Assembly (NCBI GenBank): GCA_964023205.1
Contig: OZ026850.1
Location: forward strand, 3,184,368 to 3,248,367
Length of the DNA stretch: 64,000 bases
Source of the DNA: Lutraria lutraria
Lineage: Eukaryota; Mollusca; Bivalvia; Venerida; Mactridae
Direction: 5' to 3'
Shown: one piece after another, positions 13,190 through 31,875 of the stretch
Layout: the number at the start of each line of letters is the position of its first letter
How positions within the stretch are numbered: position 1 is the first letter of the stretch
Position numbers and translations under genes: made by a program
The notes under the pieces: model-generated
What the model was told of the DNA's origin: nothing
The model's input: the letters and a program-made list of their open reading frames with translations, nothing else
Databases searched by the model: none

Positions 13190-14560
13190 CAAATGAATAA
13201 ATCAAATTAGCAGATGGGAAAAGATAAAGCAATATTTTAAGTCAAATAGGACTTGGTCTTGAATAGAAATTATTATGCAAAGACCGTATTTAGAAACTAA
13301 CGATCTCTTAGTACAGTACAGTACAGCCCCTGAAAACCGGACATCTTCCGAACTGGGCCAAAAGTCGGGTTTTCTCAGAAATCAGGTTTTCAGAGAACTT
13401 TTGAAAAATTCAGATAATAGGACATGAACATTTTTTTGAATTTCAGGGAAATCAGGTTTCCAGGGGTTTAACTGTACCTACTTCTGTTGGTTTTATTATC
13501 AGTAAGACTAAAGGAGGACTACAATAATCTACATGTTGTTAAATATATACCAGTATGTTACTGTTGGTAGTACATTTTGTATTAAGTCTGTATCTGTCTA
13601 TCAAATATTTATGTAACTGTTTTGTTTCACCGGGAGCAATTGTGAGGTTCAGTCGGCCATACTAGTTCAAATTCCTCGTAGTTATGCTACAGATTGCCTC
13701 AAGGCGGTATATCTGTGTTTTGTCCCCGATATTTGAAATATTTTTGAGTTTGGTCGGATTTGAGAATGGGGATTTTTTTCTTCTTTTATTGTCATGATTT
13801 ATTGCATGATAGCACCTACGACTTTTTGTAGATGATCTCTACATAGAGTTAATTTACAACTTGATGTTATATAATTCATGTAAGCCCCAAATCTTATTTA
13901 CGAATTATCATAAACTCCGAAATATTACTTTTAAAGTATGCTCATAAATCAATTTTATGTCAGGAATTAATCTGCAAAGAAGTAATTATCAAAATATAAA
14001 TAAATGCTATGTCCCTAGAAGTAACTCGTGAAAATAGAAGCAACAGATCTGAGCAGAAATGTTGAATAAACACGCAAATTAAAAAATATATTTATGTAGC
14101 CTGCACGTAAACCGTCGGATTGTAGCGCGAATAACGAGTAATTTGATAGCTATATACAAAGTTGTTACTAGCGACCGCCTAATATTTTGCATTTCACATG
14201 ATCGATCGAGAGACATAAGACACAAGAACGCAGAACTTGGATACGAGCTTGTTATATTGAAATATCTACATTCTAGGTTTGATATGTTATTTCTACCATT
14301 TTTAAATGTTTTATTATTTTTAATATTACTTATGGTTTAATTACCGGATCTGTTGGAATGATAAAAAATAATTAATTAAAACTTTTTTTCTTACTGTTGT
14401 CATTGTTGCATGCCGTTGGTGGAGTACAGGAATAATGTCAGTGTTTGAATTAATAATTTGATTGGTCCACCGTTGCCTATGGTAACCGTAGAAAGTTTGG
14501 CACGTCACATGACCGATATGCATATCACTCATTTGATAGCATGAGAGAAAATCGCTGAAG
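13190..14560 (+). repeat. Promoter-module repeat, unit 1
   Basis: This stretch aligns by eye with 15970-17640, and its last part also with 17820-18150. Shared phrases include GAAACTAACGATCT, GTTGGTTTTAT, GTATATCTGTGTTTTGTCC, TTTATTGCATGATA and GCAGAACTTGGATACGAGCT. It contains two copies of the module TTTGAT...ACCG...GACCG...TCACATGA (14140-14208, 14459-14516). It was invaded by a TACAG-type MITE at 13322-13476. No gene seen inside. Confidence 0.6.
13322..13476 (+). mobile_element. TACAGT-type MITE
   Basis: Inverted ends TACAGCCCCTGAAAACC and CAGGGGTTTAACTGTA. The interior repeats the phrase AATCAGGTTTTCAG several times. Same general family as 6717-6897 but with a different internal repeat. 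Confidence 0.5.
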
Positions 14561-15969: not shown

Positions 15970-17640
15970 AATATTACAAACGAATGAATCAAAGATCACA
16001 CAATATTTTAAATCGAATGGGACAGGGCCCTAAATGACAAATATCGTGCAAAGGCAATGACCAGAAACTAACGATCTAGTACATACTTTTGTTGGTTTTA
16101 TCATAAGTTAGAGAGGACAATAATAACTTGTTATATGTATATACTAGTGTTACTGTTGACTGTACATTTTGTTTTAAATTTGTATCACTAAGAGTGAGAT
16201 TCGGCCTACCAATCCAGTTTAAACCCCTCGCTACAAACTATTCCAAGGTAGTATATCTCAGAGAGATTGTGTTTTGTCCTCGATATTTGATATATTTTTT
16301 AGCTTGGTCGGATTTTGAAACTGTGGGATATTCTGTGTTTTTTCTAAATCATTCTTTTATTGTTATGATTTATTGCATGATATAGCAGCTACACATTGCG
16401 TTCCTTTTTATGGAATATCTTTCCATAGAATTTATTTACAATTTACTGTTGTCAGGGACATTGGCAACTTAAGATATCACGCATGACATCATTTTGTAAA
16501 TTCTGTAGCAAGTAAAACTCGAAAACCAAATAAAATACATATATAAATCATACATTTTCTGAAAGGTTAAACATTTGACTTCGGCAGGAAATAATATTGT
16601 GTTATATTTTAAAGTTAATTTTTAGATATATCCACTAGAATGTAATTGGCCTGAAAAGAATTGGTACCAATAGATATTTTTTAGAAATATGGCATCAGTA
16701 GGTAGTATAAACATGGGTGTAATAAAACTATCAGTCAAAATTGATATTTTAAAAACACGGCAGCTGTAGTTTAAATAATAAACTTTCAGAAAATATAAAC
16801 TTTATGCATGTGTTATCAGTAGATAAGAAGTTTTACTTGCTACAAAATCAGCAATTTTTGGGAAAAGTAACTGTCATGCGTTCTATTACATAGGTAATAA
16901 CTGAAGTCGCTTATATCTGTTATCTATGTCTCTGCTGTTGTATAATTCATTTGAATTCCATAAACGCCAAAATATTACTTTCAGATTATGCTCATAAATC
17001 AGTTTTATGTCAGCAATTGATCTACAAATGAGTAATAACGAAATATAAATAAATGCATCGTCAATTGAAGTTACTCATGAAAATATTAGTCTGATAAAAC
17101 TAGTCATAAACAAGACGCCACAGGTCTAAACCTTAAGCAAAAATGTAGAAAAAACACGCAAATTAAACACTTATTTGTCTAGCCTGCACGTAAACCGTTG
17201 GATTGAAGCGCGTATAACGAGTAATTTGATAACTATGTACAAAGTTGCTACTAGCGACCGCCAAATATTTTGAATTTCACATGACCGTTCGGGAGACATA
17301 ACAAACAAAGAATGCAGAACTTGGATACGAGCTTGTTATATCTACATTCTAGGTTTGTTATGTTATTTCTACCCATTTTATAAATGTTTCATTATGTTTA
17401 ATTTTACTTAAGGTTTAGTTACCGGGTATGTAAGAATAAAAACAAAACTTTCGTTTAAAATTTTGTTTTTCTTTCTGTTGTCATTGTTGCATGGTGGGTG
17501 GAGTACGGGAATAATGTTTAGTGTTTGAATTAATAATGACAAATCGTTATACATAATAATTATGATAAACAGCAATATTGATAAATAAAAAGTAAAGGTG
17601 ATTATTGGTCTAAATAAGGTAAAAACAGGCATTATCAACT
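15970..17640 (+). repeat. Promoter-module repeat, unit 2
   Basis: Direct repeat of unit 1, with a foldback element (16480-16880) inserted. It ends with the same TGCATGGTGGGTGGAGTACG and GTGTTTGAATTAATAAT phrases as unit 1 near 14405-14458. One module copy is at 17224-17287. The 14560-15970 spacer between the units shows nothing recognisable apart from a GGAAGTACGGAATCGACCGA phrase at 15466. Confidence 0.6.
16480..16880. mobile_element. Foldback MITE of about 400 bp
   Basis: Left arm CGCATGACATCATTTTGTAA, then TGTAGCAAGTAAAACT and TTTTCTGAAAGG. The right arm holds the complements CTTTCAGAAAAT, AGTTTTACTTGCTAC and TGTCATGCG. The arms are interrupted and of unequal length. No target duplication seen. 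Confidence 0.55.
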
Positions 17641-18149: not shown

Positions 18150-18798
18150 ACGTTAATGTTGATTAAAATGATCTCAATTGCAAGTATTATATTATTATCA
18201 AATAAATTATTGAGTACGTACAGTATATTTAACGGGGCCGACTTTCCGACAATAATAATTTAGTGGAGTTTGATCGATGCCACTTAGACATGTAAGAGTT
18301 GTTTCCCTTTGACCATTTTTATATCCCACTCATATCGATAGATCGGAAAATTATTGTTTTTTGGCCTGTCTGTCTGCCTGTCTGTCTGTTAGTATCAACC
18401 TTTATATATTGCCTATAAAATCAAAGCGCGTCCATCTGCAATCATCAAACTTCATAATTATTTTGGTTCCCGAAGACATCCCGTGTAGGACCTGTGGTCT
18501 GCAGGACAAAGATCCAGGTCACTCTGAGGTGTACTGAATAATAATAAAGAATATTGACATATTCTTTGCTTAAAATTGCTAGTGTCGAACCGCTTTGGTA
18601 TTGTGAGCATGCATAAATTCAGTGCAAGAACCACACTAGTTTATTGGATTCGATCTTGAATATCAACCAATATGGCTGTCTATGCATAAGGAAATATTCT
18701 AGAGCTACTTTTGCCTGTGAATAATTTGAGACTGAATATATGCAGTCTACTCAGTGAAATTTCTGTATTTGTTTTACATTTGTTTGGGATACTTTCAG
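18150..18798. other. Upstream flank of NLR gene 2
   Basis: AT-rich with a short (CTGT)n tract at 18368-18392. A 5'UTR exon of gene 2 should lie here or further left because the acceptor at 18797-18798 precedes the ATG, but I could not place it. Confidence 0.4.
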
Positions 18799-18984
18799 AT
18801 ATAACTATGGGTGTTGACATTACCACCTACAGAAGTAGGGTGGGAACGTTTGTCCCTCGAAGCGGTGCTGGAATGATGCCGGTTTTTATTGATTTTAGCA
18901 AATTGGTGAAGATGATTGGAGTTGTGATATTTATCAAAATGTTGTTGTTCCGGGCAGGTATAGAACAAAATCCTGGACCTACCA
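18799..18984 (+). CDS. NLR gene 2, first coding exon: 2A-like leader
   Basis: The exon follows a pyrimidine-rich acceptor (AG 18797-18798), has 8 nt of 5'UTR, and codes for 59 codons plus one base from ATG 18807 to donor GTAAGA at 18985. It starts MGVDITTYRSRVGTF, passes through a hydrophobic stretch (MIGVVIFIKMLLF) and ends RAGIEQNPGPT. The last eight residues before T match the 2A consensus D-[VI]-E-x-N-P-G-P, except that Gly replaces the usual Asp. In 2A peptides the ribosome fails to form the bond between the final Gly and Pro; here that pair is codons 57/58 (18975-18980), four bases before the intron. Sea urchin NLR proteins and some invertebrate non-LTR retrotransposons are known to carry N-terminal 2A-like peptides. 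Whether this Gly variant works is unknown. Confidence 0.75.
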
Positions 18985-21900
18985 GTAAGAATACATATTT
19001 GTTTTTGTTTTTAAAATGACTCAATGCTTTTTTTCATAAGCATGCTGACTGGGTATCATGTATATTTATTTTCTATGTCACACATGCACACGGCTAAAGT
19101 CATTCAATTTGCAATATGAGTTTTATGCAAATTCTTACATGAGGTTTAAAACAGCTCTTTACAATCAAATTATTCAGCCAACAATCTCGCTTAGGAAACT
19201 TGGTTATTTAAAAATCATCATATCATTTCAATGAATACTCATTGCATCTATGTTCAGAGATTAAAACTGCAGTGTAAATCTGGGTCAAATTATCATGGTA
19301 TTGTATTCGATTTATCCAGACAGTATAAAATATATCAGAATGAATGTAACATTTAATGGATGTAATGTCTGAAAATATGCGTGACAGAATGCTGGTTGAG
19401 AAATATGTGTTTTAACGACAATGTTCCAAAAGAGTGTGAGTATGATATAATATTCATAATACTCATATAGTTGAATATCCTAGAAATATGAGAGATATTA
19501 CAAATCTTTAAATACGCATATATACTAACGCATATTTTATAATATGTATAATTAAAGCTGCACCGACAATCAATTCGAAAGTTGATGATCAGACTAAGTC
19601 ACTTAGAGAACCTTGGGAACTAAACGTATCAATCGGTGGAGATGGTCCTTTTACAGTCAAGGTCATAAAGGATGGTACTGAACTCACTGGGAATGACCAT
19701 ATTGAAATCTCACACACTGCTGATTGTGTCACAGTTAAGGTCAATAAGTTGATAATGGAGGATTCTGGATCATACCGCATTGATGTGTCCAATGATATTG
19801 GTACTGGCACCTGTAGTTTTGATATGAAGGTTATTGGTAAGTGACTTAATCCTGGTGAAATTTACCATTGTCTAATAAAATGAAATTTTTATTCATATAA
19901 GTTTTGAATATCAAACTTCGGCACAAGGGACACTACTCCAGTTTAACATCTGAAAATCATTATCATCACGACATTACTCTTCATGAAGGAGATTACCTTT
20001 GATATAGTATCAAATATTTTAAAGTTAGCAAATTTTCAATGAATCATTAAACAAGACTTACTCTTGATTAAATTTTCTTTAAATAGTTAAATCCTCAATA
20101 TGTCAGTTTTGTTCACTACATTTATAATGTTTCACTCTTAATTAAGTTAAATTTATACTGTTTTATTCCCACCATTATGAACTACGCTAATATTTTGTTT
20201 TAGGTGATTACAACTTCAGATACCAGTACCTTCTAGTAGAAATAGGAACAAAAGTGTTAAGGAAACTATTTGATAGTAAGGTTGCCAACAACTTTGGGCA
20301 GTACGTGGCTACTAACCCAACTGTAAGTAATATGCTTACATCTCTGATGACTGGTAGAAATCGTAAAATAACAGTCGCACAGGAACAGTTACTACCACCT
20401 ATCAAGACAAAGCCTGTATCTTCAGATTTTGATATCACTTTGCTAACTTGCTTGTTAAGGAATGCGTGTGGTCTACGTCCTCAAAACGACCTAGTATGGA
20501 TGAATCCAATGCCCACAGACACATCAGTTGAAGCAACAATCACTAGGTTAAAAGATTGCAGGAACAAAGTGAGTACCTATATAATATCTTATGTTAATTA
20601 CTATATGATCATTTCCTTTTCTCTTATCTTAGAGCAATATCAAAACAGACATAACCCATGTAACAGCAAATTGAATTGAGTTAAATCTTTAGACGAATAA
20701 AAATTCAGTTGTCTTGTGTTAACCGAAACTTTTAAATTTCAGAAGGTGAATTAAGGGGTATTATGATTACACGCAAATGCCATTTTTGTTGTTTTTCAGT
20801 TGTCACACAGTGGAACAGTGTTGTTTCCAGAATCAGATCTCAATGATAAGTGGACAGAATTGAGTGATGTAAATATTAAATTAAATGCTATTTCCCTATT
20901 CAGTTATATTCAGATTATAATGCGGGTTCTTATTTCACAATAATAATGATTGTAATTATGGATGATTTAGAAATATGTTTTATTTCTCTTTGGAATGTGA
21001 GGTAATAATAATCTTCTTATAATGCATCAAAAGTACGGACATTGAGTTAATGCAAACTTTTCGATAGTCTACTTCTTTTCATAAAGACTTCTTTAGCAAC
21101 AATGACAATAATGCTAATGTTTGTTAAACCTCTTTATTCCACTTAACGCTCCCCTCTATTTCACATTGTAATATTCATGTGCTCTTCCTTCTTTCAGTGC
21201 TATTTTTCCTCACCTGAAGCTTGTACGAGTTCTTTTGTGATCACTTAATTGAGCTATGGATATCTCCCACTTTTTGTTAATCTGTGATAATTTTTTGGGC
21301 TATATTCATTGATCCTTTTACTGCAATCTAACTAATCTGAACCTCATATATTATCGGTATTTAAATCTCCCCATTCAATTACTAGCCCTCAAGTCTTTTC
21401 AACCTCAACCTGAAAACATTCGCTATTCAGAAATTGTTGAAGTTATCAGGACCATTGGGTCTTTTTTGCTATATTGTGAGATTGCTTAGCTGATGTTTTT
21501 AAGAAATATTTGCATGACAATATTATTGAATGTTTTAGATCAAATGATGGATCATAATAGCAAAGATAATACTACAATCCATACTCACTCATAGAAATCA
21601 TTTTTTCAAATTCTGTCCGAACTCAATAAGCATTGTGGTAAAGATAGCATCCCTGACTTGCCTTCATTAATAATTGCAGCCAGTCATATGGATATTGATG
21701 AAGAAATGCAGAAGCATTTTAATGAATCTATAAAAAGGTGGTATGAAAATGATCAGGAAGTTAAAACAGAAGTAATGAAGTTGGGAGAAAAAATTACTGC
21801 AATGGCTGAATATGTCAGCAGAAATATTTGCTTAAACTATTAACAACATATTGGGTATTTTCGATGAAATAATGTGTCATGTTAGCAAACATAATACTCC

Positions 21901-24900
21901 AATCCATATTCACTCTTAGATTCTGTCTGAACTTAATGAGCATTGTGGAAAAGATGGCTTCACTAATTTACCTACATTAACAGATGCAGCCAGTCATATG
22001 GATACTGATGTAAAATGCAAAATCATTTTCACTCTAGAAATCTTTTTTTTTAGATTCTGTCTGAACTTAATAAGCATTGTGGAAAAGATGGCTTCACTGA
22101 TTTACCTAAATTAATAGATGCAGCCCGTCATATGGATACTGATGAAAAAATGCAAAATCATTTTACTGAAACTATAAAAATGTGGTATGAAAATGATCAA
22201 GAAGTTAAGGCGGAAGTGATGAAATTACGTGATGAATTTGGTGAATTTAATGAAAAGGTGACAGAAATTGCTACAAATGTAAGCGGAATCAAGAGACACT
22301 ACGAAGGTACATTGAATTTCCTATTAGTCAATATTTTATTCATACAGTCATGTTGGGAAATACTAGTTTATAATGTATATATGAAGTGTTATGAAAGGGT
22401 TTCTTAGGTAAAGACATACCTGCACACCAGGTTATTTTATAATATTGGTGTAGTGAAGTTCAGAGGTAAATCTTCAGATGTACATGTATATATGTTGAAC
22501 AATTTTACGTCAATCTTTTATAAAGGCAGCCTGCTAAGCACAATTTGTATTTACTTCGGGACCAAACTTTCAAACCCTGACTGAGATTCATGTCTCATGT
22601 GATGTTTTGATTGAAGAAACAATGTCCAAGTCAATTTTGTGTGGATAGGCTTTTGCTATTATTTTCGAGTAGAGCAAGATAAGTAATGGTGTAGAATCCA
22701 GGTAAACGGAAAACTGGATGTGTTTTAAATGACTGGAATACAGTTGAAGACTGGTGTAGAAAATATTGACTCCTTCTCTACTTGCATGACTGTTATCAGA
22801 AATGATTTGTATAATATAATGAATTTGTGATTTTTTAAAAAGATATAATGTATGTCACCAAAACTTGATACGTGTATCTGAGGTTAATCTGTATTATCAC
22901 ATTTTGTACTTGTTCCTGTATTGTCATTAGATTTTATCAGTTTAATTAACATTTTCGTTGACATATTCACAGCATTGATAAATTTGTCAGTTAATAAACA
23001 ACTTGAATTGTATAACAATTATTTGGAATCCAATTTCAGACGGAGAACAAACAATTTATAAACGAGTGAAAGGAAATGAGAGAAAACCAAATATAGATGA
23101 TGCTTCAGGTATATTTTATTCAACATCGAGTCATTTAAATATTCCTAAAATAATGAAACTAGACAAGAATAACAGCTAGAGCCATGAAACTTTCTAAGAA
23201 TAATTGTCAGCATGTGAACTTTGTACTTTGATGCACATTTAATGGAGATCACTTGGGTTATTGTCCCTGATTAAGCAAAAAATGACATTTTTGGACTTGT
23301 GTGGATTGTAACTTTACAGTTTTACTCCAAGAATCATTCAAGAATATTTTTCTACTGAGATCAGCTGACTAAGGGCCATTTATTAAGACAAAGTTAGCAG
23401 ACAACTGTTTATTGCTTTAGTTTTTCTTTACCCACTTTAAAATATACATAATTCTGTCTTGAAGCTATATGTTAAATTCACAAGCACATGTACTGATCTT
23501 ACCATCTCCACGTGTTAAAATTATCTAGAGTCTTTAAGGATAACCGACCCTAATACAAACAAATTTAATGACAATGAACAAAGTTATAGCTAACTGATAC
23601 TTATAAAATGTGACATTCAAATATAACTTATTAAATATTTACTTTCAACCATGCAACATTTTAATATGTTGCACCCGAATCAGTTATATTTGACTTTATA
23701 TCATAAAGGAAGGTAATATTACTAACTAGTTCTCTCCCTTTTCTATGATTAAAAATGCCAAAATTACACAATTCAGAAAAAAGCTCGTGGTAAATGATTT
23801 ATAAATGATTCATTCTACATAGGCAATGAAAATAAACAAGAGTTTAATGGTCAGAAATGAATGCTTGCATTAGGGTCTGTAATCCTTAATGTGACAGACC
23901 ATTTTTTTACTTCAGAATTCTATTGTACCAAAGCAGCAGAATGTGGGGCATCCGTGTCCTACTTCTCGTTATTAAATAGTTAACTATTTATTTGAAATAT
24001 GGATCAGAATATCTATGTATCACCCTCTAAATGGTTTTTAACAACCAAAGGATATATGTGGGACCTTTCTCTTCTATGTGGTAAATGTTTGTAACTTCAT
24101 TTTTATTACCTCCCTGAAAGACTATCCGCTGAATTGATCAGGCTCTATAGTTACTTAAGTGTCTCTTTTTGTACATTTTTAGAAGTATTTCCTATTGAAT
24201 TTATATTCGAAAACATGTGATATAGGTAATTGAAATCTATATAGTATTGATCAATATTAAAACAATAATATCATTTTCAGATATCAGAGAAAATCTTATA
24301 AGAATTTATCAGGAAGATTGTTCGACCTTGTCAGTGTCTCCTTTGTTTGAAGATGAGACTGCTGAACTTTTAAAAATCTACCAGAACCCAACAATGTTTC
24401 GGGTAAGTTATAACACAGAGCAAAGGAAAGAAAACAGTAAACATGAAAACCAAGAAGAACAAACAATAGAAGATAAAAATAATATAACATCTTATCAAGG
24501 TATATTTGTCAAGGAAGACCGTCTGTGTAAGAATATTTACATTACCGGAGATGCGGGTGTGGGGAAAACATCATTATGTAAACGGATGTGTCTGTTATGG
24601 TGTAAATCAAAATCAAATGACCAAATTGAAGGCAAATGTGACGATAAAACTGGTGGTCGTTTAAAAGCTGACGTACAATACATGTCTAGATTTGATTTTG
24701 TATTTTATGTGACCCTACGTGACACTGATTTAATCGATATTAATGCTATGATTGTTGAACAGTTGTTTTATACAGATAATCATAAAGAAAATGATGAAAT
24801 GTACAAGCGCATAAAAAATATTCTGATGAACAATGACTGCCTCGTAATATTGGACGGTTTTGATGAATGGACGCCTAAGACGGTTGAAAAGGGGAAATGT

Positions 24901-27138
24901 GACAAACCCTCGTGCAAAGCTTCTGAGAAATGTGTATTTCTGACAACTTGTAGACCCTACAAAATTAGTAATATAAGATTGTTGCCGACTCAGATAGATC
25001 AGCAAGTTCAGATTACTGGTATTGACACTTCGCATGATTATGTTGAATATTTGTTAAAGGATATGAATGAGACGAATCATGACTTCAAAGATCCAGACGA
25101 ATTCATAAATGATGTAAGCGAATGTAAGCTTACCGAGTTACTATGTATTCCGATGATTGCCTCACATCTGGTGGTGCTGTGGTGTGATAGAAAGCTGACT
25201 GAAATGTCTCAAGCACATATTTATACCCATATACTAGACATGCTTTTTGAAAGAGCTGAAAAAAGAAAGGTCAATATTCCAAAATCACCAGGAGAAGAAT
25301 TTCAACTACCAGATTCACTTGCAGAGTTTATGTATTTACAACAACATGCTCCTTTATTGCATAAATTATGTTTACTTTCATTTAAATCATTGTTTAACAA
25401 AGACAAAATGGCTGCAAATCTTGTATTTTCTAAACAGCAGTTGACGTCTGAACCATATAAATTGTCCAATGAAGAAAGTGATTTTCTGTGTCAAATTGGC
25501 ATTTTGTCCAAGAATAAAGTGATAGGGCGATATTTGAAACAAAAACAAAAAATATCATTTATACATAAAAGCTATATAGAATTTCTGGCTGCATTTTTTG
25601 TATCCGTCTATGACAAATGTAACTCTTTTGATGAAATTGTGAATGAATGGACCTGTGTTGATGATGTTGTACAATATAAAAACTTCTTTCTCTTTCTTAC
25701 TGGATTTTCTTCTCAAAAAATGACAACGTTACTTGAGAAAGTTTACCAATCACTATCAGATCATTTGCATTTATGTAGAAAAAATTCTATATTTCATTAT
25801 AATCATGATGATTACCTAACACAGATCAGATCACTACAAGACATGATTGTCACATGTTTCGGGGAGGTCAGGAAATACAATGAACAAGACTGTCGACTCC
25901 TAATTGAAGATTTCTTTTTTCAATATAATTTTAAGGATGGTATAGATGACTATGATGATGGTAATTATGTTGATGATACTGATAGTGAATCTGATAATAC
26001 TGATGAAAACCAAGACATTGATGATAATAGTGTTAACGATTCTACTAATACTGATGAAAACAATGATAATGATGATGATGATGGTATGAGTGTTTTGAAA
26101 CAACTTCTATTGTTAAATACTGCATGTGTAAAATCAATACATTCAGATAATGGAAAATATTACCCAGAGTTTGATCAATTCCATTGTCTGCAATGTTTAA
26201 TTATAAAAATAGTATGGTCTCCTGATATTACAAAGTTCACTGAGTGCATGTTACAGAATAAATCAACACTACACACTGTTTGTATTGGACATGATTATTT
26301 TAAAGATAAAGTATTGATACCAGAATTACCTGTGAGAAGTCTCCATCATCTGACATCTCTGTCACTGACTAATGTTGAAATACATCCTATCAGTATGCGT
26401 AATCTGATGTCATTTCTGTCTGACAAAGTTCTCATCGAAAATATAAAATTGTCTCAAATTTCTTGGTGTGATGACTGGTGTTTCCTATTGTATCATAACT
26501 GTACATTGCCTCTAGATCTTTCAAAACATACAAAACTCACTTCATTATGTCTTGAAAAAGTTAATATTCAATGTAATAATGTAAACAATTCTAGTTTACA
26601 GTCCATCAAATTGTCACTCTTACAAATGAAAATTATTGAACTTTGTTATATTGATGTATTTAATTGTATTATTGGTTCACAACTGGAACACCTGCATATC
26701 AGTGGTTACTCTGGTGATGGTTTCGAAGATGTTCACATGTTAGAAATCAATACACTGAAAACATTGATATCTACAGTGAAAACTCTTTCTTGCATCAAAA
26801 AACTAGAACTAGCTTTCATGAAGTTACCTGATGAATTTTTAATACAACTACATCCTCATGTAACACAAGTGGAGATAGAGCTGTGTGGTGTCATGATGAG
26901 TCATCAATGCTTTCATGGTTTTATTGAAAATTGTGTTAACATTAAAGCAGAGGTAAAAGTTTGCTTAATATACTGTACGATTACATCAGTTTTTGGAGAA
27001 ACTGACTATAAACAATTATTGTACGAGTCTTGGAAATACATGTTTGAATATCTTAAGTCAAAATCTACGAAAAACATCATCTATAAAGGTGGTCTTTGCA
27101 GTGCACTTTTAGAATATGAAACAAAAAGTTGTCAGTAA
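18807..27138 (+). CDS. NLR-type immune receptor, gene 2: 2A-like leader, Ig, HEPN(DZIP3), NACHT, LRR
   Basis: Complete seven-exon model: 18807-18984, 19558-19836, 20204-20568, 20800-20868, 22054-22306, 23040-23108, 24281-27138. Every junction has GT/AG, phases agree (1,1,0,0,1,1), and the sum is 4,071 nt (1,356 aa plus stop). Domains by residue: hydrophobic leader 1-50 with 2A-like GIEQNPGP at 51-58; I-set-like Ig about 60-152; DZIP3-type HEPN about 153-297 with R272-N-K-L-S-H277; helical linker 298-404; NACHT from about 480 with Walker A GDAGVGKTS at 494-502 and Walker B ILDGFDEW at 594-601; an HKSYIEFLAAFF helical segment; then irregular LRRs to the end. By family, NACHT-LRR proteins are cytosolic ATP-driven immune sensors and HEPN domains are often RNases. 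The architecture suggests an innate sensor with a possible RNA-cleaving output, which is inference. The first in-frame ATG is 18807 (A at -3, G at +4) and an acceptor at 18797-18798 suggests an upstream 5'UTR exon. An Asp/Asn-rich insertion lies near residues 951-1006. The gene model is likely; function is not shown. Confidence 0.85.
19558..19836 (+). CDS. NLR gene 2, exon 2: immunoglobulin-like domain
   Basis: This 279-nt phase 1-1 exon codes for one Ig-like fold of about 93 residues (acceptor AG 19556-19557, donor GTAAGT at 19837). It shows the I-set pattern: W in PWELNV, then FTVKVIKDGTELTG, and the C-terminal D-S-G-S-Y-R-I-D-V-S-N-D-I-G motif that marks strand F of titin-like Ig domains. 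The canonical strand-F cysteine position is Arg/Ile here (SYRID), as in some cysteine-poor intracellular I-set domains. Phase 1-1 is typical of shuffled Ig exons, so it could have been gained as a module. Ig domains at the N-terminus of an NLR are unusual. Confidence 0.8.
20204..20868 (+). CDS. NLR gene 2, exons 3-4: DZIP3-type HEPN domain
   Basis: Exon 3 is 20204-20568 (donor GTGAGT) and exon 4 is 20800-20868 (acceptor TTTTTCAG). Together they read YQYLLVEIGTKVLRKLFDS, then SSDFDITLLTCLLRNACGL, then DTSVEATITRLKDCRNK, then LSHSGTVLFPESDLNDKW and TELSD. This is the pattern of the HEPN domain named after the E3 ligase DZIP3, common in mollusc and cnidarian innate-immunity proteins. The likely catalytic motif R-N-x3-H of HEPN RNases is present as RNKLSH. 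It is split by the 231-nt intron: RNK ends exon 3 and LSH begins exon 4. HEPN domains can be active RNases or inactive RNA-binding folds; retention of R, N and H favours the former but is not proof. Confidence 0.82.
21602..21843 (+). pseudogene. Dead linker-exon copy A of NLR gene 2
   Basis: This stretch matches the linker exons at 587-839 and 22054-22306 (HMDIDEEMQKHFNESIKRWY). The acceptor is lost: the sequence reads TTTTTTCAA where the active copies have CAG or TAG. The frame ends in TAA at 21841-21843, and the usual GTACAT donor is absent. Its 5' half and upstream intron look most like gene 1, while its 3' half has diverged. It is probably skipped. Confidence 0.65.
21920..22030 (+). pseudogene. 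Truncated linker-exon copy B of NLR gene 2
   Basis: It has a TTAG acceptor and reads ILSELNEHCGKDGFTNLP then HMDTD. After GATACTGATG it loses a block and frame and runs into intron-like sequence followed by copy C. No in-phase donor is visible. It is very like copy C in its first about 110 bases, so it is a later partial duplicate of C. Confidence 0.6.
22054..22306 (+). CDS. NLR gene 2, exon 5: charged helical linker
   Basis: The exon starts after a T-run acceptor (TTTTTTTTTAG) and ends at donor GTACAT, phase 0 in and 1 out, 84 codons plus one base. It starts ILSELNKHCGKDGFTDLP and ends in a charged helical, coiled-coil-like stretch (KAEVMKLRDEFGEFNEKVTEI). It continues the HEPN helical region and links to NACHT. 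It is the third and only intact copy of this exon in the gene; two damaged copies precede it. Its second half is nearly identical to the gene 1 exon at 587-839. Confidence 0.8.
23040..23108 (+). CDS. NLR gene 2, exon 6: short linker exon
   Basis: A 69-nt phase 1-1 mini-exon between CAATTTCAG and donor GTATAT, reading DGEQTIYKRVKGNERKPN then IDDAS. It is basic and hydrophilic with no recognised domain. It is identical at the paralogous position 1573-1641 in gene 1. Its frame only works when joined to the flanking phase-1 exons, which supports the whole model. Confidence 0.72.
24281..27138 (+). CDS. NLR gene 2, last exon: NACHT ATPase plus LRR region
   Basis: A 2,858-nt terminal exon after TCATTTTCAG. 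It codes for DIRENLIRIYQEDCSTLSV, then the NACHT domain: Walker A GDAGVGKTS (24547-24573), Walker B ILDGFDEW (24847-24870), a sensor-like TTCRPYK, then the helical segment FIHKSYIEFLAAFF. After that come irregular LRR-like units, such as LHHLTSLSLTNVEI, HTKLTSLCLEKVNI and LEHLHISG. The reading frame is open a little upstream of 24281, but that stretch is intron: it has no ATG, and the acceptor restores phase with exon 6. An acidic Asp/Asn tract (about 25918-26085) lies between the NACHT-associated helices and the LRRs. The first about 1.2 kb is nearly identical to gene 1; the remainder is diverged. Confidence 0.85.
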
Positions 27139-29020: not shown

Positions 29021-30682
29021 CTAATTTTCGTAGCACCCACAGCATGTTAGAAAAACATTTTTGCAAGACGCTCTGAATCTTGAATCACACACGCTGTATA
29101 TGATGGGGTTAATAGCACAATTTAAAAAATACGACCTCAGGAAAAACTTATAAACAGCAAGATTATTGTCAGACAAATTTTGTACAAAGTTTCCCATAAC
29201 TTGTCGAAAAATCATCAAAAATAGATGGGGTAGAAAGCTAAGTATGAATGCGATGGTTATAACAAACATGAGAAATGCTGTTTTTCTTGCACGTGCTTGT
29301 TTCAGAAATTGAGTTCTTTTAGCAGTTCCATTACTTGAATCAGTCTGTATACTGACGACCGAGGCCAGTCGCACGAAGGCTTGAGAAATTCTGCTGCTTA
29401 TGGAAGACAGACGCTGTCGGAATTTGTTTTCATTATGGTTTGGTATACTTTCAAAGCTTGTAACGGGCGACGTCTCGTCGAACTCGACGACTTCTTTCTG
29501 ACCATCTTCTTTTTCTTCACAAATACTAACCACTATACTAACCCTATTAAGCTCATGCTCTTCATTGCTTTCGTTTTCCTCTTCTTCCATTTCATTTCCA
29601 TATTTATCATGTTCATCAATTTCTTCTATTGCATTTTTATCATTTTCGCGATCTATGTCTTCCTTTACTTTGATACCACTATCTTCCGAATCTGAATTTT
29701 GTTTTTCAAGTTCAACGTCTCCCCTTACGTCGGCGTCAATTCGTTTGATGTCTTTTAATGAATCTCTGGCTTTGCTTTCCTGGCTTTGGGTGAAACTCAG
29801 TTCGAAGTCCTTTTTATCGGTCCATGAGTCCTCCGAGTAGGCATTGTTCTTATGCGACAGCCTTTTCTTTTTCAGCTCTTTATTCTTTGTATTTACAATA
29901 TCGTATTTCGCTGTCAAATCAGGAATAACTTCTCCACTTATTCTTGAGTCAAATGCTACGGCGACTGAAGATGGAGAATTTTTATCAAACCTTTGACTCA
30001 TCTTATGCATTTTTCTTGCATGTTTCTTCACTTCGTGTCCGATAAAACAGTACAGAACAGACATGCAAATAATTTGTGTGATGAACAAAATTCCAAACAA
30101 TAATGAATTTATCATTGGATATGGTTGTCCTTGCATTCCATCCGCTGTCGAACATTCTGTTCCTGTTAGATTGAATTCTGGGATTTCAAACGTGTGTTTA
30201 CCATAAATGAAAAATGCCGGAAGAGACAACATTGCTGACAGAGCAATGGATAACAAACAAAGGTATTTGGCAACTGTGTTCTTAATCTGTTTTGCGAATG
30301 GTTTGCACACCTTCCTAAATCTGTCTATGGCGATAAAGAGCAGTATGAACGCTGAGGAACATGTACCAAATGTGTTGAAACATCGAGAACACTTGCACAG
30401 CCACAAATGACTGAAGGTGTATTGTTCAAGAACCGTTGCCACTTCAAATGGTATGGAAATACAACATGAAAACAGATCGATTGCACTAAGGCACAGAATG
30501 AAACACTTGGAATTTGATTGCTTATATCGAGTCCTGTAAATATGAATCACAAGGCTGTTGCCAAATATTCCAATAACAGAAATTGTTAGTAAGTAAACAA
30601 TGGTCGGAACAAGACGCTGTACCTCGGCACCGTTTAATTCTTCTAGAGTCACAGCATCTTCAGTGACATTCATCGCCTCCAT
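29021..30682 (-). CDS. Class A (rhodopsin-like) GPCR, intronless, long third loop
   Basis: A 553-aa single-exon frame with seven hydrophobic segments. TM1 carries FGNSLVI (G41-N42). TM3 starts after Cys96 (WLCKC), pairing with Cys177 of loop 2 (GTECS). The DRY position is D120-R121-F122. TM6 is AFILSFLPHLF, lacking the usual Trp. TM7 has N525-P-I-I-Y529, followed by a cysteine cluster suited to palmitoylation (CGC). Loop 3 is about 250 residues and rich in Glu/Asp/Lys (EEIDEHDKYGNEMEEEEN). An N-glycosylation site (NVT) lies near the N-terminus. The start is the ATG at 30682; seven upstream codons are open but begin at GTG. General features fit the peptide or amine receptor groups expanded in molluscs; the ligand cannot be named. 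A CACGTGAC box lies about 90 bases upstream. Confidence 0.9.
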   Translation of the reverse strand: MEAMNVTEDAVTLEELNGAEVQRLVPTIVYLLTISVIGIFGNSLVIHIYRTRYKQSNSKCFILCLSAIDLFSCCISIPFEVATVLEQYTFSHLWLCKCSRCFNTFGTCSSAFILLFIAIDRFRKVCKPFAKQIKNTVAKYLCLLSIALSAMLSLPAFFIYGKHTFEIPEFNLTGTECSTADGMQGQPYPMINSLLFGILFITQIICMSVLYCFIGHEVKKHARKMHKMSQRFDKNSPSSVAVAFDSRISGEVIPDLTAKYDIVNTKNKELKKKRLSHKNNAYSEDSWTDKKDFELSFTQSQESKARDSLKDIKRIDADVRGDVELEKQNSDSEDSGIKVKEDIDRENDKNAIEEIDEHDKYGNEMEEEENESNEEHELNRVSIVVSICEEKEDGQKEVVEFDETSPVTSFESIPNHNENKFRQRLSSISSRISQAFVRLASVVSIQTDSSNGTAKRTQFLKQARARKTAFLMFVITIAFILSFLPHLFLMIFRQVMGNFVQNLSDNNLAVYKFFLRSYFLNCAINPIIYSVCDSRFRASCKNVFLTCCGCYEN

Positions 30683-30703
30683 TATTATTCCGTTTTCACG
30701 CAC

Positions 30704-31875
30704 ATTAGATGAAATCGAATGAATCTTAAGTGAACAATATTCTTCCGGTTACCAAACAGACTAAAGATATCACGTGACAGTGAAATTCACAATGTTGCTA
30801 TTTTTAGATTTTTTTGAACGAGTTGGGACTTGACTCTGCGTACAATACCGAACATACAACCATTCAATTTATTTCACAGGCAGTCTTAGTTGCTAACGCA
30901 GTTTAAGAAGCCAAGACGTCAACTTGGAACACTTTACATAATGATGATTGTCGTATTTAACATCTTCTGTCAAAACGAGGAATTTTGCGGTTAATGTCGT
31001 CACCAATAAGTCACATTGGACTTGAGCTTTCTCCTCCTGAAAGTACACAAATGAGACATTATATTAAAATAAAAGCAAGAAATATCTCTTATATGTTAAA
31101 ATCCCTTGACATCGTCAATACGATTTAATCACAAACATTTTCTTTTCAAGCTAGGCCAGGCAGTTCCTTTGCCTGCTCGTGCTTTATCGACAATAATTTT
31201 CACTAATTAATTGATGTTTGAAATTAATGCTCCCAATAGGTGAGTGAAATCCAAGCAAGAAAGCCATAATTGCAATAACATGTGTACATGTATAAGGAAA
31301 GAATTTTGACAAGAATTCAATGCATGTACAATACTTATACAAATACCATATAGAACGAACGCAAGAATACGCTATAGTGTCAATATGTGCAAAACAGACA
31401 AAAGGAATGAAATATCAACAGATAGCGACAATGTGTTATCGTTTGCCAAGATACACACAATGAAGTGTGATACGAAATCACTTTTCGCAAGCAATCTTTC
31501 AGAAGTTTGCTTCTAAAGGTCACAGACTGGAGATGGAATCATTTTATACTCGACCTCTCCAAATGTTTGACATCAATTTGACTCGTGCAGACAACAGAAA
31601 TTGTCATAAGCTTTAAACAAGACGACAATGACAAAATTACATAATACCATCATTAAGTATTCGCCTGCTTTATAGCCACGTCCATATTTTAAAGTCATGA
31701 TTATCATAGGGTACGTACAGGGTCAGAACATGAAACTGCCATGACATTTGACAAAATTACATAATAACATCATTAAGCAATCGTCTGCTTTATAAACTGA
31801 AACTGTTTTATTTGCTTAAACGCCTAACTTTACTCAAATTATACTCACTGGCGTTGTACATTTAATCGAATTCAG
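30704..31875. other. Upstream flank of the GPCR
   Basis: Contains a CACGTGAC E-box near 30771 and AT-rich sequence. A 5'UTR exon of the GPCR could lie here. No coding frame with recognised content. Confidence 0.35.

Follow-up and report, generated by a model that had tools for sequence, protein, structure and literature searches.

A StopGo/2A-like leader exon at the N-terminus of predicted HEPN-NACHT receptors in the bivalve Lutraria lutraria

Many predicted HEPN-NACHT receptor genes of Lutraria lutraria begin with a leader exon that closes with a 2A-like (StopGo) core. An N-terminal 2A leader exon on these receptors, as the earlier note had proposed, is backed by the splice structure, by recurrence in the genome, by conservation of the core and by its presence in a second bivalve, and such a core also lies upstream of most loci of a second gene family. 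The leader exon is probably active in StopGo, yielding for the most part a receptor with Pro as its first residue, along with a form that stays fused to the leader.

The leader exon in the window and its gene model

The window is a stretch of 64,000 nucleotides of L. lutraria DNA. The receptor gene that it contains has the following features.

18807..18984, plus strand: leader coding exon, 59 codons plus one base, reading MGVDITTYRSRVGTFVP...FIKMLLFRAGIEQNPGPT
18897..18956, plus strand: hydrophobic stretch SKLVKMIGVVIFIKMLLFRA preceding the core, KD19 maximum 1.94
18957..18980, plus strand: StopGo/2A core octapeptide GIEQNPGP (Gly 18975-18977, Pro 18978-18980)
19558..19836, plus strand: I-set Ig exon, phase 1-1 (PF07679, 34.5 bits)
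20204..20568, plus strand: HEPN_DZIP3 exon, first part, with the R of the Rx4H site (PF18738, 83 bits)
20800..20868, plus strand: HEPN_DZIP3 exon, second part, with the H of Rx4H (CRNK/LSH)
22054..22306, plus strand: linker exon, third of three tandem copies
23040..23108, plus strand: short linker exon
24281..27138, plus strand: C-terminal exon with NACHT (PF05729, 35.2 bits), helical and probably LRR-like parts, and the stop

The ATG of the leader exon has a strong start context and an AG 8 nt before it. It is the first ATG, at 18807, of the frame 18690-19019 (sequence MGVDITTYRSRVGTFVPRSGAGMMPVFIDFSKLVKMIGVVIFIKMLLFRAGIEQNPGPT), and the core is in frame with it. The exon ends in RAGIEQNPGPT, positions 18957-18984 encoding GIEQNPGPT plus one base, and is followed directly by a GT donor at 18985. 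The 2A-like motif that the earlier note had seen at the close of the first coding exon is thus real, and the hydrophobic helix described ahead of it was recovered as a hydrophobic stretch, putatively an exit-tunnel helix or a signal-anchor-like segment. The predicted Gly/Pro break at 18977/18978 was misplaced in that description: it lies seven bases (two codons plus one base) upstream of the exon end and not one codon.

GIEQNPGP conforms to (D/G/C/N)(V/I)ExNPGP, the form to which the StopGo core has been widened (Li et al. 2026, PMC12846837). According to that paper, StopGo nascent chains prevent formation of the Gly-Pro bond and viral cores have Gly at p12 as often as Asp; it also cites D12G variants that are functional. 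The Gly had been taken for a departure from the consensus; since Gly at p12 belongs to the consensus, the view of the core as a damaged motif was rejected. The paper describes motif 5 as an L-rich upstream class ending in (A/G/S)G at p12 and places it outside the classes assayed. By eye, the leader sequences MLLFRAG, LLIMSG and LLILAG resemble motif 5. Viral StopGo sequences with Gly at p12 (PMC12846837) share with these leaders the core G(I/V)ExNPGP and, by eye, an L-rich upstream sequence ending in AG or SG like motif 5; here, however, the motif belongs to cellular genes, is N-terminal and ends an exon. DHAV-1 2A1, with GxExNPGP, has been reported as active (PMC6249498).

In the predicted model, the leader joins the I-set exon in phase 1 and five more exons follow, with GT..AG at all junctions. 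The seven-exon model is open and encodes an NLR of 1356 aa. By inspection, neither of the usual disulfide cysteines is present in the Ig of the window. HEPN_DZIP3 is the N-terminal effector domain, and its Rx4H site was recognized by inspection and in the Mactra alignment. The tandem copies of the linker span 21580-22259; inspection showed the first to be without an AG acceptor and the second without an open frame, the third alone retaining both. The NACHT score exceeds its cut-off of 26.7. No LRR was detected in the window model by Pfam at E<=1. A fold model of the last exon, built on an alignment with 12 Mactra relatives (mean pLDDT 76, pTM 0.70), matched NLRC4 best, followed by NOD2 and NLRPs, along the whole exon (E 2.1e-22, TM about 0.3-0.4). 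By this model, the C-terminal part is probably LRR-like. Of the Ig-HEPN-NACHT-LRR receptor first described, the Ig, HEPN and NACHT domains therefore stand by Pfam, while the LRR has no Pfam match and is suggested by a fold model resembling NLRC4 and NOD2. The exons downstream of the leader encode Ig, HEPN and NACHT, and no in-frame ORF1, endonuclease or reverse transcriptase of a non-LTR retroelement was found there.

A section of a second NLR copy was seen on the plus strand of the window, with a linker exon match from position 587 and a NACHT match from 2814, the latter 98% identical to the NACHT at 24280. Its leader exon (L050, core GGIEQNPGP) lies just beyond the window edge.

Recurrence ahead of HEPN exons and in Mactra antiquata

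If as many as two mismatches to the core pattern are allowed, 0.79 occurrences are expected by chance in the window. In the genome of 728.5 Mb, exact GIExNPGP occurs at 121 sites and GVExNPGP at 20 sites, with 0 reversed-pattern controls for each. A chance match was rejected because the 121 GIExNPGP sites stand against 0 controls and most of them precede HEPN exons.

The HEPN exon search gave 150 matches (150 of 183 candidates scored), at least two of which are pieces of one exon (C11:37.648 Mb). These were compared with 120 core sites, comprising 100 listed of the 121 GIExNPGP sites and the 20 GVExNPGP sites. For at least 106 of the 150 HEPN matches, one of these 120 exact G(I/V)ExNPGP cores lies within 15 kb upstream, on the strand of the HEPN match and at a median distance of about 790 nt. 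With the same cores as controls, 4 HEPN matches had a core downstream and 1 had a core on the opposite strand. Another 20 HEPN matches have a leader-exon match alone upstream, bringing the total with a leader match to 126 of 150, and for 24 of 150 neither a listed core nor a leader match was found upstream. Nine of the 20 were read, and an intact core was present in seven of these (the window gene, L043, L044, L045, L049, L050 and L051), including L044, in which the head of the leader is interrupted. In the other two, the core is altered (L048, GNEQNPGP) or contains a stop (L047). The exact core is absent from two further leaders of the 20, both on C18. An exact core thus lies upstream of at least 113 of the 150 HEPN matches, 106 by pattern and 7 by reading. 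The earlier note had described the motif on one Ig-HEPN-NACHT-LRR receptor; the motif is confirmed, but the gene is one among these many.

Ig-exon matches number 27 (57 of 57 candidates scored), with 22 on C19, 4 on C18 and 1 on C15. Some genes have two Ig exons (L027), and the Ig of L028 keeps one of the two usual cysteine positions. The Ig was rejected as the defining part of the family, given 27 Ig matches versus 150 HEPN matches; genes with Ig-HEPN-NACHT form one branch within the 2A family. The Ig-HEPN-NLR architecture with a 2A, put forward as new, is present in the window but is not general to the 2A family, in which the Ig is a subfamily marker.

No HEPN match was found downstream of 13 of the 120 listed core sites, eight of which are the GTPase cluster on C17 described below. 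Also among them are a C12 site (L007), where an element-like frame has a PHD finger, a site at C17:21.68 Mb with the same core codons as the C12 site, and the sites on C6, C8 and C14. The C14 site (16695639, plus strand) is a lone GVEPNPGP. At C6:23.95 Mb and C8:5.95 Mb (L002 and L003), a leader of another type was seen, with a GIEPNPGP core and ending in LLLLTQGIEPNPGPVA, which in L003 is followed by a donor-like GTGAGT. In the 8 kb beyond the C8 site, the sole long frames belong to a Gypsy-like element on the other strand, and no gene was assigned to the C6 leader within its 3 kb.

Dispersed copies of one 2A-NLR were observed on C1, C9, C11, C16, C18 (at 9.8 Mb) and C7 (L001, L004, L005, L008, L019 and L048). 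Five of these six are 99.4-100% identical over 2.5-3 kb, including the flank and the first intron, and the short L048 copy is 98.5-99.1% identical over 334 nt. The copies reflect a recent spread at the DNA level, perhaps with a mobile element as the vehicle. Additional leader matches were noted at C16:28.75 Mb and on C46.

A profile search in other species gave 343 proteins, and the best 120 of the 343 were examined by their annotated N-termini, which are possibly incomplete. Among these 120 were 14 HEPN_DZIP3 proteins of Mactra antiquata, 13 of them with NACHT listed. Exact G(I/V)ExNPGP is present near the N-terminus of 11 of the 14, and the other three (P0011, P0013 and P0014) start at possibly altered core remnants. 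The proteins P0005-P0007 have the head MG(I/V)DI.SYRCRIG, the same as in the Lutraria leaders. With a profile built from 13 core-free leader sequences, P0007 scored 52 bits and P0005 43 bits, and the best of 2000 shuffles of each reached about 14. The core columns G, N, P and G are at least 90% conserved among the aligned Mactra proteins. The motif occurred in 0 of the 106 other proteins among the best 120 of 343, which included Mercenaria, Ruditapes, Mya, Pinctada and corals. Of the other bivalve NLRs, in which the earlier note had suggested looking for the motif, those of Mactra carry it and, by annotated N-termini, the other listed relatives do not.

Conservation of the leader and its relatives

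In the leader search, 150 of 160 candidates were scored and 135 matches obtained. Its query contained the core, so leaders without a core were harder to find. The core listing covers C18 in full, and on this contig 92 of the 95 leader matches have the exact core. A sample of 19 leaders (L039-L056 and the window) was taken from the leader search regardless of the core, and 17 of them have exact G(I/V)ExNPGP. In the 18 stop-free leaders, the pN/pS was 0.107 for the core (pS 0.647) and 0.268 for the nine residues ahead of it (pS 0.848). A first selection estimate, from 31 distinct leaders picked by the motif, had given a dN/dS of 0.033 for the core, 0.139 for the hydrophobic part and 0.211 for the head; it was discarded as circular because the copies were chosen by the core. 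No core was found in L037 (C4) and L038 (C9), which also came from the leader search. The former consists of tandem leader-like repeats (C4:13111000-13112200), with leader matches running from 13108474 to 13116024. In the repeats that were read, the 2A core is lost and no HEPN match lies nearby, and the array is decaying.

Exon features were scored in 36 motif-selected copies, some of them identical; the selection makes the core invariant by construction. A GT in phase 1 lies within 1 or 4 nt of the last Pro in 35 of the 36 copies, and 35 have a strong start context. A rough rule, which overlooks the AG of the window itself, recognized an AG and a pyrimidine-rich stretch ahead of the ATG in 33. 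The KD19 exceeds the cutoff of 1.6 in 35. Leaders are mostly 54-63 aa long. Lys and Arg occur inside the hydrophobic segment, making its signal function uncertain. The presence of this segment would fit a leader that is merely a signal peptide or anchor, its NPGP being a by-product without skipping. This explanation is very unlikely, since constraint in the 18 leaders is stronger on the core than on the hydrophobic stretch just ahead of it, the G, N, P and G columns of the core are conserved in Mactra, and the downstream domains are of cytosolic types.

Eight GVExNPGP sites lie in a second gene family at C17:22.72-22.99 Mb. In L057, an exon with a hydrophobic stretch and the core has a phase-1 donor and is joined with a long exon encoding URGCP_GTPase (257 bits) and URGCP (137 bits) domains; the two-exon model of this VLIG-type GTPase is open and encodes 1636 aa. 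All 8 URGCP_GTPase matches of the genome are located at C17:22.63-22.99 Mb. An exact core lies 1.6-4.7 kb upstream on the same strand in 7 of the 8 loci, one of which has a second core too, and no core was found upstream of the eighth. The leader sequences were read at two of the eight places, L040 and L057. Without the core, their scores with the NLR leader profile were 20.7 and 17.7 bits, versus 13.7 and 10.6 for the best of 2000 shuffles of each. A search in other species for leader-bearing VLIG relatives gave three matches, none named as bivalve. VLIG-type GTPases presumably have an immune role, as their interferon-inducible vertebrate relatives do.

Cores of the D-form, D(V/I)ExNPGP, were found at 86 sites on 20 contigs, with 1 control. 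They were rejected as NLR leaders, being upstream of 0 of the 150 HEPN matches. Eight D-form loci (L029-L036) were read, and several resemble non-LTR elements by eye. The domain scan of L034 gave Exo_endo_phos at 34.6 bits, above the cut-off, and Transposase_22 at 17.2 bits, below the cut-off of 22.4; scans of the L031 and L033 pieces gave nothing above the cut-off. L034 starts with MGVDINAWRVVIGTFVQ, and its leader resembles MGVD...GTFV. This leader scored 18.0 bits against the NLR leader profile, compared with 12.4 for the best of 2000 shuffles. The profile scores of L029, L030, L033 and L035 of the D-form, and that of L002, were no higher than those of their own shuffles. The similarity suggests that the NLR leader and one element, L034, have a common origin, in either direction. 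An N-terminal 2A is known from non-LTR retroelements (Odon et al. 2013) and is found in both settings here, but the D-form cores are dispersed and never precede HEPN, whereas the receptor leaders are of the G-form.

The leader exon might accordingly be a retroelement fragment that was exonised by chance and has no function. The dispersal of the D-form cores, the combination in L034 of an MGVD...GTFV-like leader with a downstream endonuclease domain, and the loss of the core in the leader-like C4 repeats without HEPN nearby are consistent with this. A functionless relic is disfavoured by the recurrence of the leader upstream of HEPN matches, by the retention of the exact core in C18 leaders, by the lower pN/pS of the core and by the presence of the leader in Mactra, and we regard it as extremely improbable. 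An origin of the leader from an element is possible, and a functionless leader is not likely. Because of the same four observations, selection on the leader exon is the best reading of the sequences.

Predicted products and relation to known systems

From the leader sequence, we infer skipping and, with it, the ratio, location and purpose of two products from one mRNA. Once GIEQNPG has been added to the hydrophobic helix on the ribosome, the nascent chain would remodel the peptidyl transferase centre. The Gly-Pro bond would mostly stay unmade, freeing a leader of 57 residues, and translation would resume from Pro. Most of the product would be a receptor of the cytosol, Pro-Thr-(Ig)-HEPN-NACHT-LRR. 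A smaller share, made without skipping, would retain the leader, whose hydrophobic segment could send it to membranes as in the sea urchin NLRs. The leader would act as a portable phase-1 exon in most HEPN-NACHT genes and in the VLIG-type GTPases. The cytosolic form is favoured as the working form because the HEPN, NACHT and Ig domains are cytosolic in character.

Skipping may also be real but serve dosage or stress gating rather than dual targeting. The share of ribosomes that stop after the leader would then set receptor output according to elongation-factor activity or viral interference, and this would guard against autotoxic receptors with an RNase (HEPN). The RNase-type Rx4H site is kept in the HEPN domain, the window Ig, which by inspection lacks the customary disulfide cysteines, fits a place in the cytosol rather than the ER, and the core is shared by VLIG GTPases, which are cytosolic. 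The KD19 values above 1.6 in 35 of 36 leader copies argue in the opposite direction. Control via eEF2 kinase has been proposed by Roulston et al. (PMC4981915), in line with gating, but a sea urchin leader in the same report routes the unskipped form to the exocytic pathway. We give gating as the purpose somewhat less than an even chance.

The reading with a Pro-starting receptor and a leader-fused form has its nearest precedent in sea urchin SpNLR2A (Roulston et al. 2016, PMC4981915). That work already described 2A at the N-terminus of NLRs, and the earlier statement that the uncut form is routed there agrees with it. In that report, a SpNLR2A leader is about 80% active in vitro, by a qualitative estimate, and the fusion with an inactive mutant goes to the Golgi. 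The sea urchin and the predicted Lutraria gene models both have an N-terminal hydrophobic 2A on multigene NACHT receptors, and the sea urchin genome likewise has 2A in non-LTR elements (PMC4981915). The sea urchin leaders have 26 aa and D(V/I)ExNPGP, and their NLRs are described as DEATH-NACHT-LRR; by contrast, the G(I/V)ExNPGP leaders of Lutraria are longer, precede HEPN_DZIP3-NACHT, in some cases with Ig, and are also found upstream of VLIG-type GTPases.

More than 50 NACHT proteins with an N-terminal HEPN_DZIP3 have been described in Pinctada fucata, enriched on one chromosomal scaffold, with Rx4-6H kept in most (PMC9646362). The available text of that report mentions no 2A leader, and the single listed Pinctada protein, P0023 of P. 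imbricata, is without 2A. StopGo has been called rare in cellular genes, with the sea urchin proteins cited as an example (PMC12846837). The same paper cites a survey of eukaryotic and viral 2A that covers cellular proteomes (Rao et al. 2025, Cell Reports 44:115822) and may include mollusc cases. For 2A on mollusc NLRs, our literature search returned the sea urchin report alone, with possible overlap in Rao et al. As far as these searches show, the bivalve host, the HEPN and Ig architectures, the Gly-core leader exon, its family-wide use and the second family are new.

With more than 100 core-bearing receptor genes, conservation in Mactra and use in a second immune-type family, cellular StopGo would become a recurrent device of invertebrate immunity. 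The leaders also put many natural variants of one upstream class (L-rich, with Gly at p12) on hand for activity tests, and raise the question of why immune effectors shed or retain their leader. Tentatively, and with more doubt than confidence, a portable StopGo leader exon, kin to the N-terminus of a non-LTR retroelement protein, may have been acquired in this bivalve lineage and put before the HEPN-NACHT and VLIG-type families, two immune-effector families that are unrelated, with much of the innate repertoire made via skipping. If so, skipping, through its dependence on the translation machinery, would couple receptor form or dose to a translational state that viruses and stress alter.

Two other features were observed in the window. 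An open frame of 575 aa on the minus strand (29021-30748) resembles a class A G-protein-coupled receptor by eye. Direct repeats at 14052-14304 and 17136-17380 lie 3.08 kb apart and are 87-97% alike.
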